A program made the position numbers and the translations under genes. From Clostridia bacterium (GTDB taxonomy: Bacteria > Bacillota > Clostridia > DUPQ01): a DNA stretch of 43,194 bases. Below are positions 3,129-26,215 of the stretch, piece by piece. The stretch lies in assembly GCA_016938455.1 (NCBI GenBank), contig JAFGUQ010000256.1, positions 1-43,194 on the forward strand. The letters run 5' to 3'. Position 1 is the stretch's first letter; the number at the start of each line of letters is the position of its first letter. The notes beneath the pieces are model-generated. The model saw only the letters and a list, made by a program, of their open reading frames with translations. It did not search any database and was not told the DNA's origin.

Positions 3129-6100
3129 TTATACTATTTCAAACATATTTATCATATCAAGTATTTTTTTTGTAAATTGCAGTAACAAAGCTCCTTCTTT
3201 TTGTGTATAGAGGGCAATCCCCATATTCTTGTCTGCTTTTAGAATCATTTTCTCGTCTATTTTTCCTGCTATTTGTGTAATCATATTTAAATCAGGTGTT
3301 GCCTTTTTACTGTATAACAGTTCCAACCCATACCTTTTCTGAGTGACACTGATAAACTGGTTGTCTTCTGCATAGTGCTTGATGATGGCAATATCCAGAA
3401 GATTTTCACATTCTTTCGGAATATCACCAAATCTGTCAATCAGTTCATCTATCAGATCATTTTTCTCTTTTTCATTGGAAATATCAGCTATTCTCTTATA
3501 AACGTCCATCCGCTGGAGGTCATTTGGAATAAAGGTATCTTTGATGAAAGCATCTACAGAGATATCAACACTGGCTTCTTCAAGCAGTTCCTCTTTATCA
3601 TGTTCTCCGCCCAGTTCTTTTATAGCGCTGTTTAGCAGTCTGATGTACATGTCATAACCTACTTTTTCAAGATGCCCATGCTGATTTGCTCCTAAGAGAT
3701 TGCCTGCGCCTCTTATTTCAAGATCTCTCATAGCAATTTTAAAACCACTGCCGAATTCAGTGAATTCTCTGATGGCTTCCAGTCTTTTAGCTGCATCTTC
3801 TGTAATGACCTTGCCTTTCTGATAGGTAATATAGGCATAGGCTACTTTATCTGATCTTCCTACTCTTCCCCTGATCTGATAAAGCTGTGCCAATCCCATG
3901 CGATTGGCATCTTCTACAATGATGGTGTTGACGTTCGCCATATCAAGTCCAGATTCAATAATAGTAGTGCATAATAAAATATCATATTTATGATTGATGA
4001 AATCTTTCATGACATTTTCCAGTTTCTTTTCTTCCATCTGGCCATGAGCAACAGCAATTCTGATGTCTTCTCCCAGCAGTCCTGTCAGTTTTGAATATTT
4101 AAGATCCATTTCTTTGACACTGTTAAAAAGATAAAAAACCTGACCATTTCTAGCCACTTCTCTGTCTATGGCATCTCTGATGACATCATAGTCATATTCC
4201 ATGACATATGTTTGAACAGGAAACCTCTTTCCTGGAGGATCTTCGATGACGCTGATATCTCGAATACCGCTTAAAGACATATTCAGCGTTCTTGGAATAG
4301 GTGTTGCCGTCAATGTCAGAACATCAATATTATTCTTATAGTTCTTGATTTTTTCCTTGTGCTCTACTCCAAACCGCTGTTCTTCGTCAATGACAAGAAG
4401 ACCAAGATCATGATATTGCACATCCTTCTGCAGCAGCCGGTGGGTACCCACTACAATATCAATGCTCCCTGCTTTCAGAAGAGAAGTGGTTTTCTCCTGC
4501 TGCTTCTTGTTTCTGAAACGGCAAAGCAAATCCACTTTCACCGGAAAATCCTTGAGTCGCTCAACAAAGTTATTATAGTGCTGATAAGCAAGAATAGTAG
4601 TCGGAACCAGGAATGCCACCTGCTTGCCATCCATCACAGCTTTAAAAGCAGCTCTGATGGCTACTTCTGTTTTACCATATCCCACATCTCCGCATAAAAG
4701 CCTGTCCATGACAGTCCCCGACTCCATGTCACTTTTAATTTCCTCAACACATCGAAGCTGATCTTTTGTTTCTTCATAGGGAAACTGATCTTCAAATGCC
4801 ATCTGCCAGACAGTGTCCTCTGAATAGGTGTGACCGATAATTTCTTTTCTTCTTGCATAGAGTTCAATGAGTTCTTTTGCGATGTCCTTGACATTGGCTT
4901 TCACTTTTTTCTTGGTATTTTCCCATTCAGTACCCCCTAATTTGGACAATTTGGGACGATTCCCATCTGATCCGATATATTTCTGGATCATTTCCATTTT
5001 AGAGACAGGGATATAGACACTGTCATCATTTCTGTAAATGATATGAAGATAATCTTTAGTGATGCCGGCCACTTCCATTTTTTTTAATCCGACATACTGA
5101 CCGATCCCATGCACATCATGGACCACATAATCGAACACTTTTAAAGTGGCAAATAAATCAAGATCTCGGCCGCTCTTTCTTCTCCCGCTATCTTTTTCAG
5201 TTTTTCTGAAAATCTTACTGCTTCCCACAATGCAGAGCTTGGCATCTAAAAACTCAAACCCCTCATAAATACCTTTATCAACCACTGTGACTGCACTTAA
5301 AGTATCGATCTCATCCAGATTCTCCACATGACTGGAATAAATGTGATTTTCCTCAAGGTAATCTGCCAGAATACCCCCGCTTTTTTTAGTTGGTGTGAAC
5401 AGAACAATTTTACGGTCATGTTCTTTCCATTTTGTGATGTCTTCCAGAAGCAGGTCCATCCTCCCCCTGTAAGCAATGTTCTCTCTTGTCAGAAAGCCAA
5501 ACTCAATTTGCGGCTTGAAGTTCATATCATAATTCTGTACCTCAGGCATGATGATTGACACCTGCCGTTTTTTTGAAGCTTCAAAAAAATCCGTGACGAT
5601 ATTCATCCCCTCAGGTAAAATCTTCTTATTAGCCAGCAGCTTTTCACACATGATTCCATATTCATTCAGTATATTATCAAGTTTCCCTAATGACCGGCTG
5701 TCATTGTCTAGGATAATCATTGCTTTTTTTTCAATGTATTCAAAAGCTGAAGTCGCATGAGGAAGCAATGAAAAATACTTGTCGATTGGCAGATTATAGG
5801 TACCTGCAAGAAGCTTTTCCTTATCTTCTTTTAAAGGTTCAGAGAGATTAGTGTCATGCAGGAAAGTATCACAAAGGTATCTGATATCCTCATCACTGAC
5901 AATCTGCTCATTGCATGGAAGAACTTTTATGTCATCAATGCTTTCAATAGAACGTTGAGTGTCCGCATCGAAATATCTGATCAAGTCAAGAGTATCATCA
6001 AAGAACTCTATTCTCACAGGGTTTGATTCACCTGGTGAAAAGACATCTATGATGTCACCCCTTGAAGAGAATTGTCCGACATATTCAACCATGTCGCATT

Positions 6101-7217: not shown

Positions 7218-8330
7218 TTATTTTTTTAAGACTTTTTCCAATTCTTTAAGCCGATGTCCCACATCAAACATCTCACTTAATGAAATGTCGTAGTTCAGCC
7301 GGTCTATGACCTCAGAGATCATATATGACATATCTACCTCTTCATACCATTCTTTCTTTTTAATTTCTTCCGGAATATATGATAAATTGGAGCAGTAAAT
7401 TCTTTTGATAATCCCGTCTTCATAAGCTTTATCAAATTTGGCAGTTCCCTCTGTGAAAAAAGCAAAGGAAACGATACAGTAAACATTGTTCGCTTTTCTT
7501 TTTTTCGCTTCAATGGCAATGTCAAGGACTGATTCCCCGGAGGATAGCATATCATCGACTATGATGATGTTTTTATTCTCAATGGGACCACCAAGATAAG
7601 CATGTTCAACAATAGGATTCTTACCATTGACGACTTTTGAATAATCTCTTCTTTTATAGAACATCCCCACATCAACACCAATGGCTTCTGCATAATATAT
7701 GGCTCTGTCCATGGCTCCTGTATCCGGGCTCACGATCATCATCTCACTGACATCGCCTTCCACTTTGTTGTCTCCCATTAAAATGGCTTTTAACATATCA
7801 AAGGTAGGATACATGTTTTCAAATCCATAAAGTGGAATGGCATTTTCTACTCTGGGATCATGTGCATCAACCGTGATGATATTATGGACACCTAATCTGA
7901 CAAGTTCCTGAAGCGCAACAGCACAGTCCAGTGATTCTCTTCCTTTTCTTTTATGCTGTCTTCCGGAGTATAACAAAGGCATGATGACATTGACTCTTCT
8001 GGCGTTACCGCCGATGGCAGAAATTGTTCTTTTAATACTCTGGAAATGCTCATCCGGACCCATCCTGTTTTCATACCCGAACATATCATAAGTACAACCA
8101 TAATTCCCGACATCAGCAATGATATAGATATCTTTTCCTCTTGCTGTTTCTTTAAGGACCACTTTCCCTTCACCATTTGAAAATCGGATATCATCAACCT
8201 TGAGAACATAAGTCTTGTTTTCTGCACGTCTCATGGCAACCAGATCCTGGTCAACCAGGCTACCGAATTCGCTGCTTCCGTTTAACAGAATAATTCCTAA
8301 TTCTCCAACTGCCTCTCTTTTACTAAACAT
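7218..8330 (-). CDS. Divergent ribose-phosphate pyrophosphokinase paralog
   Basis: 370 aa; IIIVDDMLSSGESVLDIA (PRPP-binding loop) and ITVDAHDPRVENAIP; directly downstream of canonical prs. Confidence 0.85.
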   Translation of the reverse strand: MFSKREAVGELGIILLNGSSEFGSLVDQDLVAMRRAENKTYVLKVDDIRFSNGEGKVVLKETARGKDIYIIADVGNYGCTYDMFGYENRMGPDEHFQSIKRTISAIGGNARRVNVIMPLLYSGRQHKRKGRESLDCAVALQELVRLGVHNIITVDAHDPRVENAIPLYGFENMYPTFDMLKAILMGDNKVEGDVSEMMIVSPDTGAMDRAIYYAEAIGVDVGMFYKRRDYSKVVNGKNPIVEHAYLGGPIENKNIIIVDDMLSSGESVLDIAIEAKKRKANNVYCIVSFAFFTEGTAKFDKAYEDGIIKRIYCSNLSYIPEEIKKKEWYEEVDMSYMISEVIDRLNYDISLSEMFDVGHRLKELEKVLKK

Positions 8331-8370
8331 ATGATTTTCTGCCCCCTAAAATTATATTCTAATTATATCA

Positions 8371-8399
8371 AAAAAAAACTTATCTTTTTAGATAAGTTT
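8371..8399 (-). terminator. Rho-independent terminator after prs
   Basis: AAACTTATC-TAAAAA-GATAAGTTT followed by poly-T on the minus strand. Confidence 0.8.
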
Positions 8400-9393
8400 A
8401 ACTTTTTTCGTCAAATAGTGCACTGACAGAGTTGTCATTATAGATTCTTTCTATGGCCATCATAAAAATTTTATCAACAGAAAGTACTTTTATTTTATCA
8501 ATCTGTTTTTCCTCTGGAAGCTGGATAGTATCCAGACAGTAAAGTTTTGATATAGCTGAGTTTTCAATGTTGCTGATGGCCTTTCCTGAAAGCACACTGT
8601 GTGTGCAGCAGGCAATGACTTCTTTGGCCCCCAGATTAATCAGCTGAGTGGCGGCATTAGTCAATGTCCCTGCTGTATCAACAAGGTCATCTACTAGTAT
8701 TGCTCTCTTGCCCTCTACATCTCCAACTATGTTCAGAATTTCACAGCAGTTTGCCTGCGGTCTTCTCTTATCGATAATGGCAATCGGAATATCCAGTCTT
8801 CTTGCAAAATTTCTGGCTCTTGCCACAGAACCGATATCAGGAGAGACTGCCACATACTCTTCTCCGGTCATTTCATTGTTGAGAAAATATTCTGCAAGAA
8901 TGGGTACTCCCTGCAGATGATCCACCGGGATATCAAAAAAGCCTTCCAGCTGCGGAACATGAAGATCCATGGTCAGAATTCGATTAGCGCCTGCTTCTGT
9001 TAACAGATTGGCCACAAGCTTCGCTGAGATCGGATCTCTTGCTTTTGATTTTCTGTCTTGTCTGGCATAGCCGAAATAGGGAATCACCGCTGTGATTCTG
9101 CCTGCGGATGCTCTTTTTAAAGCATCTATCATTATAAGAAGTTCCATTAAATGATCATTTACCGGGTGAGAAGTGGATTGAATGATATACACATCATCTC
9201 CCCTGACAGAAGTGTTAATATCAATCATGCATTCTCCGTCAGAGAATCGCCCTACATGAGATTTCGATATTTCAATTCCCAGATTCTTTGCAATTAATCC
9301 TGCTAATTGAGGATTGGCATTACCAGCAAAAATCTTGATTTCTTTTCTTCTACCATTCATTAAAAAACTCCTGTTTCGTTTTAGGTCTTTCAT
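8398..9393 (-). CDS. prs: Ribose-phosphate pyrophosphokinase
   Basis: VIPYFGYARQDRKSKARDPISAKLVANLL, LTMDLHVPQLEGFFDIPVDHL, AILVDDLVDTAGTL. Confidence 0.97.
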   Translation of the reverse strand: MKDLKRNRSFLMNGRRKEIKIFAGNANPQLAGLIAKNLGIEISKSHVGRFSDGECMIDINTSVRGDDVYIIQSTSHPVNDHLMELLIMIDALKRASAGRITAVIPYFGYARQDRKSKARDPISAKLVANLLTEAGANRILTMDLHVPQLEGFFDIPVDHLQGVPILAEYFLNNEMTGEEYVAVSPDIGSVARARNFARRLDIPIAIIDKRRPQANCCEILNIVGDVEGKRAILVDDLVDTAGTLTNAATQLINLGAKEVIACCTHSVLSGKAISNIENSAISKLYCLDTIQLPEEKQIDKIKVLSVDKIFMMAIERIYNDNSVSALFDEKS

Positions 9394-24568: not shown

Positions 24569-25447
24569 ATGTCTTATTGCGTACAGTGCGGTGTTGAATT
24601 ATCAGATTATCATACTGAGTGTCCCTTATGTCACACTAAGGTAGTCAATCCAAACTCAACTGAAGCTGTCAGGGAAAAAGATTATCCTGATTACAGATCA
24701 TTACCTGTGACAGGAGGGAAAAGAGCCAATAAAATTTTTACAGGCATCATTTTAAGCCTGTTGCTGTTTATTTATGCTATTGTCCCGCTTTTCATCAATC
24801 TAATTGTCTCAAGAAACATCACCTGGTCACTTTACCCACTTATCTCAGTGGTTCTTGTATGGTTTGGAGTAGCCTATCCCTTTTTCAGAGAAAAAAACTC
24901 TTTTTTCAGATTATTCACCTATGATAGTCTCGCCGTCATTCTTTATCTTCTTTTATTGAATTTCATCATATCCGGCAATTTATTGTGGGCCAGATACGCC
25001 TGCTTATCCATCATTATCGTCTGGGTGATTTTATCTGGTATTTTCATACCTGAAAAAATCAGAGCAATCCTTCCGCTGACTTTTTATTTCATTTTGAATG
25101 CCATCATCATCTCTGTGTTTTTCGCTTTATTCTTTGATACAGAGCTGTCAATCATCAGATTATTGCTGCCGGCCAATGTCATTTTGTTTGTCCTAGTCAT
25201 CTTATCTTACTTTATCATTACTTCTAAAGTGTATGATTTTCTGGGGTTACTCATGGTGCTGCTATCTGATATTACCCTCTTCAGTATTTCGCTTGATTTA
25301 CTGCTGACAAGGTTTCTGCAAGGCAGCTCTTCATTTACCTGGTCCATCATTGTGGTTGTTGCGACTCTCCCAATCATCGCCATTGCCCATGCCATCAGGA
25401 AAGGCAAAAAAATAAGAAGCATTGTTTCAAAAAAGCTTCATCGTTAA
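24569..25447 (+). CDS. DUF6320-type membrane protein with N-terminal zinc ribbon
   Basis: YCVQCGVELSDYHTECPLCHTKVVNP then multiple TM segments; RBS AAGGAGG. Confidence 0.75.
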   Translation: MSYCVQCGVELSDYHTECPLCHTKVVNPNSTEAVREKDYPDYRSLPVTGGKRANKIFTGIILSLLLFIYAIVPLFINLIVSRNITWSLYPLISVVLVWFGVAYPFFREKNSFFRLFTYDSLAVILYLLLLNFIISGNLLWARYACLSIIIVWVILSGIFIPEKIRAILPLTFYFILNAIIISVFFALFFDTELSIIRLLLPANVILFVLVILSYFIITSKVYDFLGLLMVLLSDITLFSISLDLLLTRFLQGSSSFTWSIIVVVATLPIIAIAHAIRKGKKIRSIVSKKLHR

Positions 25448-26145
25448 TATCGGTTGAAACTGACTTCCAGCCCTTCAAAGGAAAAAGACTTAGCTGTCTG
25501 GTCAAAAGAATATGTTTTGCTGTTTATAATTTCCCTGTTGCAGAAAAGGTAAGTATGAACTTCTCTGATAGAAGCATCGACTATCCAATACTCAGTCACT
25601 CCGCAATTCAAGTACAAGTCAAGTTTTTTGACATAATCAATGCTTTTTGTTGACTTAGAAGTAATTTCAACAATGAATGTCGGAACGCCAAGATAATAAT
25701 CCTCATCATTCAATTGATCATCTAAATCACATATGACCATTAAATCTGGTTGAACCACATTAATGCTACCATTTGATCTGATAAGTTTAATATCATATGG
25801 AGCCATCATCGGAGTACATTTTTTTTCTTTAAAATATGGATGGAATGTACCTGCCATATCAAACAGGATTTTCTGATGAGTTGTTTTTGGCGAAGCCAGC
25901 TGATAGATTTCTTCATCAATATATTCAAATTGTTTCTCGTTATCTCTGCTCATTTTTAAAAATTCATCATAGGACTTTATTTTCCGGTTAGTTTCATATT
26001 TTGCCTCTGAATCATTTAAATATGAAGTAGAAGCTGTCAGCTTTCCCACTTCTTTCCCATTTTTCGTAATAACAATATCTTCTTTTATCGCCAGCCTAAT
26101 GTATTTTCCAAAGTTATTCTTGATATCAGTAGAAGTGACTTTCAT
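25444..26145 (-). CDS. Fusion of Phd/YefM-like antitoxin domain to Uma2-family (PD-(D/E)xK-like) endonuclease domain
   Basis: N-terminus MKVTSTDIKNNFGKYIRLAIKEDIVITKNGKEVGKL; C-terminal VVQPDLMVICDL...PTFIVEITSKSTKSIDYVKKLDLYLNCGVTEYWIVD; start set to ATG at 26145 because GGAGG lies just upstream. Confidence 0.85.
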   Translation of the reverse strand: MKVTSTDIKNNFGKYIRLAIKEDIVITKNGKEVGKLTASTSYLNDSEAKYETNRKIKSYDEFLKMSRDNEKQFEYIDEEIYQLASPKTTHQKILFDMAGTFHPYFKEKKCTPMMAPYDIKLIRSNGSINVVQPDLMVICDLDDQLNDEDYYLGVPTFIVEITSKSTKSIDYVKKLDLYLNCGVTEYWIVDASIREVHTYLFCNREIINSKTYSFDQTAKSFSFEGLEVSFNRY

Positions 26146-26165
26146 TTTGTCCTCCAACATCTTTA

Positions 26166-26215
26166 TTAGCTAATTTAGCTAATATTATTGTACAAATATT
26201 GGCCATTGTTGTCAA
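26166..26215 (-). promoter_or_regulatory. Sigma-A-type promoter with palindromic putative operators for the Phd-Uma2 gene
   Basis: Minus strand: TTGACA (26210-26215), 17-nt spacer, TACAAT (26187-26192); palindromes TTGTACAA (26188-26195) and two TTAGCTAA (26166-26173, 26175-26182). Confidence 0.75.

Follow-up and report, generated by a model that had tools for sequence, protein, structure and literature searches.

An antitoxin-type DNA-binding head fused to a predicted Uma2 nuclease, with operator-like palindromes that track the head

Uma2 (DUF820, COG4636; 1wdj, 3ot2, 6okh, 9y1l) is a large family of predicted nucleases whose described members are chiefly cyanobacterial, and whose genes stand alone, often occur several to a genome and are horizontally moved. 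Feder and Bujnicki (2005) described its active site as a PD-EXX-K motif in which the lysine has migrated, joined by an additional histidine (PMC551604), and the 2009 survey of Makarova et al. found Uma2 to be rarely associated with known antitoxins (PMC2701414). The Phd-Uma2 fusion described here resembles this family in fold, length, PD-EXX-K residues and mode of occurrence, but adds an antitoxin head in the same chain and a matching operator. The head, in turn, shares its sequence, its predicted beta-alpha-beta-beta fold and its two operator kinds with the Phd/YefM antitoxins of Phd-PIN loci from the same class; these have a toxin gene as partner and an SLxGIL... tail, whereas the fusion has no partner and its tail is replaced by Uma2. 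Paired palindromes near the -10 element and start site of the gene's own promoter are also known from YefM-YoeB and Axe-Txe (PMC7730913), where the core is TGTACA and the spacing 12 bp centre to centre. The Rpn (YhgA-like) PD-(D/E)XK proteins are likewise horizontally mobile single-gene nucleases with built-in control (PMC10327210); however, their inhibitor is C-terminal and separately translated, while in the fusion the DNA-binding head is N-terminal and nothing points to an internal start. Finally, PDC-S03 of PADLOC, a candidate family only, shares the Uma2 half with the fusion, the match being without the Phd head, and a literature search found no paper naming it.

The preliminary description had allowed that the fusion might already be characterised with another role. 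We found no paper on it in the open-access literature, most subscription journals lying outside the search, although the architecture may already be on record in domain databases. The parts are known, but the combination is apparently both widespread and undescribed, and the operator argument given below is new.

The window (the whole stretch of 43,194 nucleotides that was analysed) comes from a 2.99 Mb clostridial genome in which the fusion is the single Uma2 protein. The open reading frame, first described with no strand, is a real minus-strand gene (Table 1); on the plus strand of the same interval stops interrupt the reading frame (ORF check). Its GGAGG lies five bases upstream of the ATG at 26145, and an alternative ATG in the same frame, at 26160, is the less probable start codon.

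Table 1. Features of the phd-uma2 locus, in positions of the window
Feature	Position	Strand	Basis or remarks
Predicted promoter TTGACA-17-TACAAT, directly upstream of operator	26187..26215	-	11/12 consensus positions
Predicted operator, 21-nt perfect inverted repeat TATTAGCTAAATTAGCTAATA	26164..26184	-	Sequence; type conserved across relatives
Shine-Dalgarno GGAGG	26151..26155	-	Sequence
phd-uma2 fusion gene	25444..26145	-	233 aa, stop codon 25446-25444
Phd/YefM DNA-binding head, residues 1-38, beta-alpha-beta-beta	26032..26145	-	PF02604, TIGR01552, AlphaFold2, Foldseek
Linker, residues 39-57, low model confidence, E-x4-Y at 45-50	25975..26031	-	Model and alignment
Uma2 (DUF820, COG4636) PD-(D/E)XK nuclease domain, residues 58-233	25447..25974	-	PF05685, 88 bits; Foldseek
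His90 codon, conserved His near active site	25876..25878	-	57/57 fusions; family role proposed in PMC551604
Asp134 codon (PD of PD-EXX-K)	25744..25746	-	57/57 fusions, 30/30 solo Uma2
Glu160 codon (E of EXX)	25666..25668	-	57/57 fusions
Lys174 codon (migrated catalytic Lys)	25624..25626	-	57/57 fusions, 30/30 solo Uma2

Both halves of the protein were recognised by profiles. The Pfam antitoxin family PhdYeFM_antitox scored 29.8 bits (E 5e-7) over residues 2-38, which equals its curated cut-off, and NCBIfam phd_fam (TIGR01552) independently scored 29.2 bits (cut-off 20.8), with 25.4-33.8 bits on four relatives; we regard the Phd head of the window protein as real. Since the Pfam match spans only profile positions 3-41 of 74, the head corresponds to just the DNA-binding part of an antitoxin, and the C-terminal toxin-neutralising segment is absent from the fusion, judged by the Pfam profile and by the missing tails of solo Phd proteins. 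The "complete Phd/YefM-like DNA-binding domain" of the preliminary description therefore holds for the beta-alpha-beta-beta head seen by Pfam and NCBIfam, but not for the toxin-binding half. After a linker of about 15-20 aa comes the Uma2 domain (PF05685, residues 60-205, 88 bits, cut-off 27), in which the motifs first quoted (PD..., VEITSKS, GVTEYWIVD) are present and the catalytic residues kept, so that neither of the initial doubts, an N-terminus unlike Phd or an unconserved nuclease site, applied.

An AlphaFold2 model built from 12 sequences (mean pLDDT 79.9) places the beta-alpha-beta-beta unit at residues 2-36 and is confident for the Uma2 domain, while residues 40-54 fall below 50; confidence in the head is only moderate (block means 61-77) because few sequences were usable. 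With Foldseek, the head resembled the N-terminal domain of the VapB46 antitoxin (rmsd 1.5 A over 41 columns, TM 0.78 on the target, E-value only 0.15), and the Uma2 half, which by both methods has the restriction-endonuclease-like fold of its family, matched 6okh, 9y1l, 1wdj and 3ot2 with E-values of 6e-12 to 1e-8. Solo Phd antitoxins gave no sequence match to solved structures at E 0.01. The segment found after beta-3 in many Phd proteins is missing from the fusion head, and dimerisation might therefore depend on Uma2. A near-invariant E-x4-Y lies in the poorly modelled linker (residues 45 and 50; window 26031-25975), with E45 in 55 and Y50 in 54 of the 57 fusions; the window copy has D45.

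All 57 fusions share H90, P133, D134, E160, S163, D170 and K174 without exception. As H90, P133, D134, E160 and K174 correspond to the site of Feder and Bujnicki, the nuclease is predicted to be catalytically competent, and the Uma2 half is probably an active Mg2+-dependent DNase with a PD-EXX-K site.

Upstream of the window gene we found a candidate operator of the form TTAGCTAA-A-TTAGCTAA, i.e., two TTAGCTAA palindromes 9 bp apart, that covers the expected transcription start. Two such octamers anywhere in the window are unremarkable by themselves, and it is the comparative test that carries weight; in the whole genome, two TTAGCTAA palindromes separated by no more than 25 bases occur only once. 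The number of promoter-like matches in the region of the gene was not above chance. A TGTACA at about 26188-26193 was considered as a YefM operator and rejected, being part of an extended -10 element and rare in relatives (2/25). Rfam gave no matches near the fusion gene.

For the comparison, 57 fusions were assigned to two head types by a motif rule based on the protein only, and the 100 nt upstream were scanned for the palindromes TAGCTA and CGYRCG. TAGCTA precedes 26 of the 29 genes with type A heads and CGYRCG none of them, whereas CGYRCG precedes 19 of the 28 genes with type B heads and TAGCTA none; an exact palindrome of either kind is missing in 12 of the 57 copies. Of 100-nt stretches drawn at random from the same loci, promoters included, 2.2% contain TAGCTA and 3.1% CGYRCG. 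Neither palindrome was found in 28 upstream regions of headless (solo) Uma2 genes, whose starts were guessed from Shine-Dalgarno matches; the Fisher p of 2e-13 for fusion versus solo genes is overstated, the sequences being related. The first 25 promoters had been inspected before the head rule was written, so the clean test consists of the 32 later fusions and the solo antitoxins. The preferred spacing is 9 bp in type A and 21-22 bp in type B, both unlike that of the TGTACA pairs of YefM-YoeB and Axe-Txe. In eight genomes with matches, 13 of the 17 places with TAGCTA-N3-18-TAGCTA precede a fusion gene, one of them from about 270 bp upstream. Identical TAGCTA pairs also occur 3.8 kb apart (L143; G450:C22:3037 and 6854); no Phd gene lies at the pair that was examined, and they are probably an unrelated repeat.

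Two loci separate the head from the nuclease. L039 and L051 fall on the type B side of the Uma2 tree, yet have type A heads; TAGCTA is found upstream of L051 and the variants TAGCCA/GGCTA upstream of L039. Because these operators match the head, the operator kind appears to go with the head and not with the nuclease, as far as two loci can tell. The preliminary description had suggested a self-repressing nuclease, and the palindromes argue for it: their type tracks the type of Phd head, headless Uma2 genes lack them, and the window pair occurs once in its genome. Autorepression by the Phd head is, as a prediction from sequence, well supported.

The same palindromes are found at ordinary antitoxin genes. 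Among 15 solo Phd antitoxins of the same class, seven have TAGCTA, two have CGYRCG (as CGTGCG) and none has both, and several further ones have near variants. A downstream partner was located for six of seven solo antitoxins, and the four scanned are PIN_3 toxins. No split phd and uma2 gene pairs were seen at the solo Uma2 loci examined. In the simplest history, a Phd antitoxin would have exchanged its toxin-binding tail for Uma2 while its head and operator were retained.

The fusion is a widespread family and not a rare oddity. Counted as lower bounds from the matches listed, with a limited number of candidates scored in each genome, full-length Phd-Uma2 fusions are present in at least 55 of the 398 other genomes sampled in the phylum and in at least 14 other genomes among 391 sampled in the class, with up to at least six copies in a single genome. 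The 57 distinct full-length relatives read have the same domain order and a similar length. In a maximum-likelihood tree of Uma2 domains all 57 fall on one side of a branch with support 88/90, so a single origin is likely, if not certain. Copies from the same genome lie in distant branches, which fits horizontal spread, and the repetition of paralogues at unrelated sites also suggests a gene that spreads horizontally. A dN/dS of about 0.05-0.15 for both domains in most computable pairs indicates that each is under purifying selection. Seven Uma2 relatives were found on viral contigs, all of them headless; fusions were looked for on phage contigs, and only solo Uma2 was found. Two solo genes (L119 and L120) lie on the same viral contig (IMGVR_UViG_3300043932_000246), and thus the nuclease travels on phages without the head. 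Plasmid matches in other phyla cover chiefly the Uma2 part.

At locus L036, three Phd-Uma2 fusions lie within 5 kb (4077-4808 on the plus strand, 4848-5612 on the minus strand and 7961-8677 on the plus strand); one type A copy and one type B copy converge with 40 bp between them, and each has its own kind of operator.

No conserved partner or toxin gene stands beside the fusion across the 57 loci, and no neighbour recurs widely, the biggest neighbour cluster being other Uma2 proteins. A same-strand gene lies within 60 bp upstream at one of 53 loci and downstream at six of 54. The loci lack the two adjacent genes of a type II toxin-antitoxin system. The defence-island setting contemplated at first was not seen: 94 neighbours searched with Pfam and PADLOC are mostly ordinary housekeeping genes, with scattered matches to defence models, many of them to ATPase models. 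The broader idea of a defence element is weak as well; the Uma2 half does match PDC-S03 (residues 53-231, 169.8 bits, the Phd head outside the match), but the neighbours are ordinary and no partner is shared. In the window, with neighbour names read from translations, the gene is flanked by a V-ATPase/acyltransferase/zinc-ribbon stretch on one side and a histidine kinase-response regulator pair on the other. In the nearest sister genome another gene occupies the place between V-ATPase block and histidine kinase, and the fusion is missing there; a clean empty insertion site was sought and rejected, as the region is variable and the exact junction was not found. Since the window copy is the sole Uma2 of its genome and is missing from the sister site, it is dispensable.

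Considering these results, we favour, with a probability of about 60%, a stand-alone, autoregulated nuclease module in which the Phd tail has been replaced by Uma2, probably an active DNase. The Phd/YefM head would bind paired palindromes (TTAGCTAA in the window copy) over its own transcription start and, once bound, would repress its own promoter as in ordinary Phd-type antitoxin operons, with the Uma2 nuclease domain taking the place of the toxin-binding part. Given head-matched operators and autorepression, expression would be held low and homeostatic, with release upon depletion or displacement of the protein. Against this reading count the 12 copies without an exact palindrome, the moderate model confidence for the head, the missing segment after beta-3 and the dispensability of the window copy. 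The sequences themselves show the fusion, its complete catalytic site, purifying selection, the match of operator to head and the want of a constant partner gene; DNA binding, repression and nuclease activity are what we infer from them, and that the fusion acts as a selfish or anti-foreign-DNA element is our conjecture. The clade ties Uma2 to antitoxins through a shared head and operators. With operator, regulator and nuclease united in a single short gene whose promoter is defined, function is testable, and the two head-operator types provide a built-in specificity-swap control. If the autoregulated module is real, the heads of type II antitoxins can be reused as parts for autoregulation and joined to a nuclease directly.

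The foremost alternative, which we consider doubtful, is a one-chain toxin-antitoxin in which head and linker inhibit Uma2 in cis until proteolysis or displacement frees a toxic nuclease. It would account for the conservation of E45 and Y50 in a segment that looks unstructured, it has one-chain or gene-within-gene precedents in EzeT (PMC4803016) and Rpn (PMC10327210), and Makarova et al. listed Uma2 as a likely solo toxin (PMC2701414). However, headless Uma2 is common, viable and also phage-borne, so the domain alone is not obviously toxic, and the linker is not placed by the model. An internal start giving free Uma2 in the manner of Rpn was rejected, as such starts are no more frequent at the domain border than in a control stretch (13/57 versus 14/57).

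Unlikely, in our estimate, is a transcription regulator with a non-cutting Uma2 as dimerisation or sensor domain. The strong operator evidence and the existence of another DNA-binding head on Uma2 (HTH_17, at L089 and L092) agree with it, but the catalytic residues, needless for a non-catalytic role, are invariant in 57/57 fusions, and the operator occurs in the window genome only before the fusion gene, which leaves no visible regulon. We give little credence to a one-gene module whose head would repress the gene and also target or gate the nuclease at cognate operators, the types coexisting and same-type rivals being excluded. Very improbable is an operator-guided nuclease that the head would steer to TTAGCTAA-type sites, where it would cut rival loci or incoming copies with the same operator: solo Phd loci (those tested with PIN toxins) share the operator kinds and would be targets, and several fusions with different heads accumulate per genome, but the gene's own promoter would be cut unless bound DNA were spared, and copies with the same operator do coexist, e.g., two type A loci each in G711 and G450. 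An annotation, frameshift or assembly error, for which only the position of the window copy's Phd score exactly on the Pfam cut-off could speak, can practically be dismissed, being ruled out by 57 distinct full-length copies, clade-wide conservation and low dN/dS.

The HTH_17 (excisionase/MerR-like)-Uma2 proteins are encoded at L089:289-1059 (minus strand) and L092:2949-3722 (plus strand), two genes from a Phd-Uma2 fusion, and are a second, independent head-Uma2 architecture.
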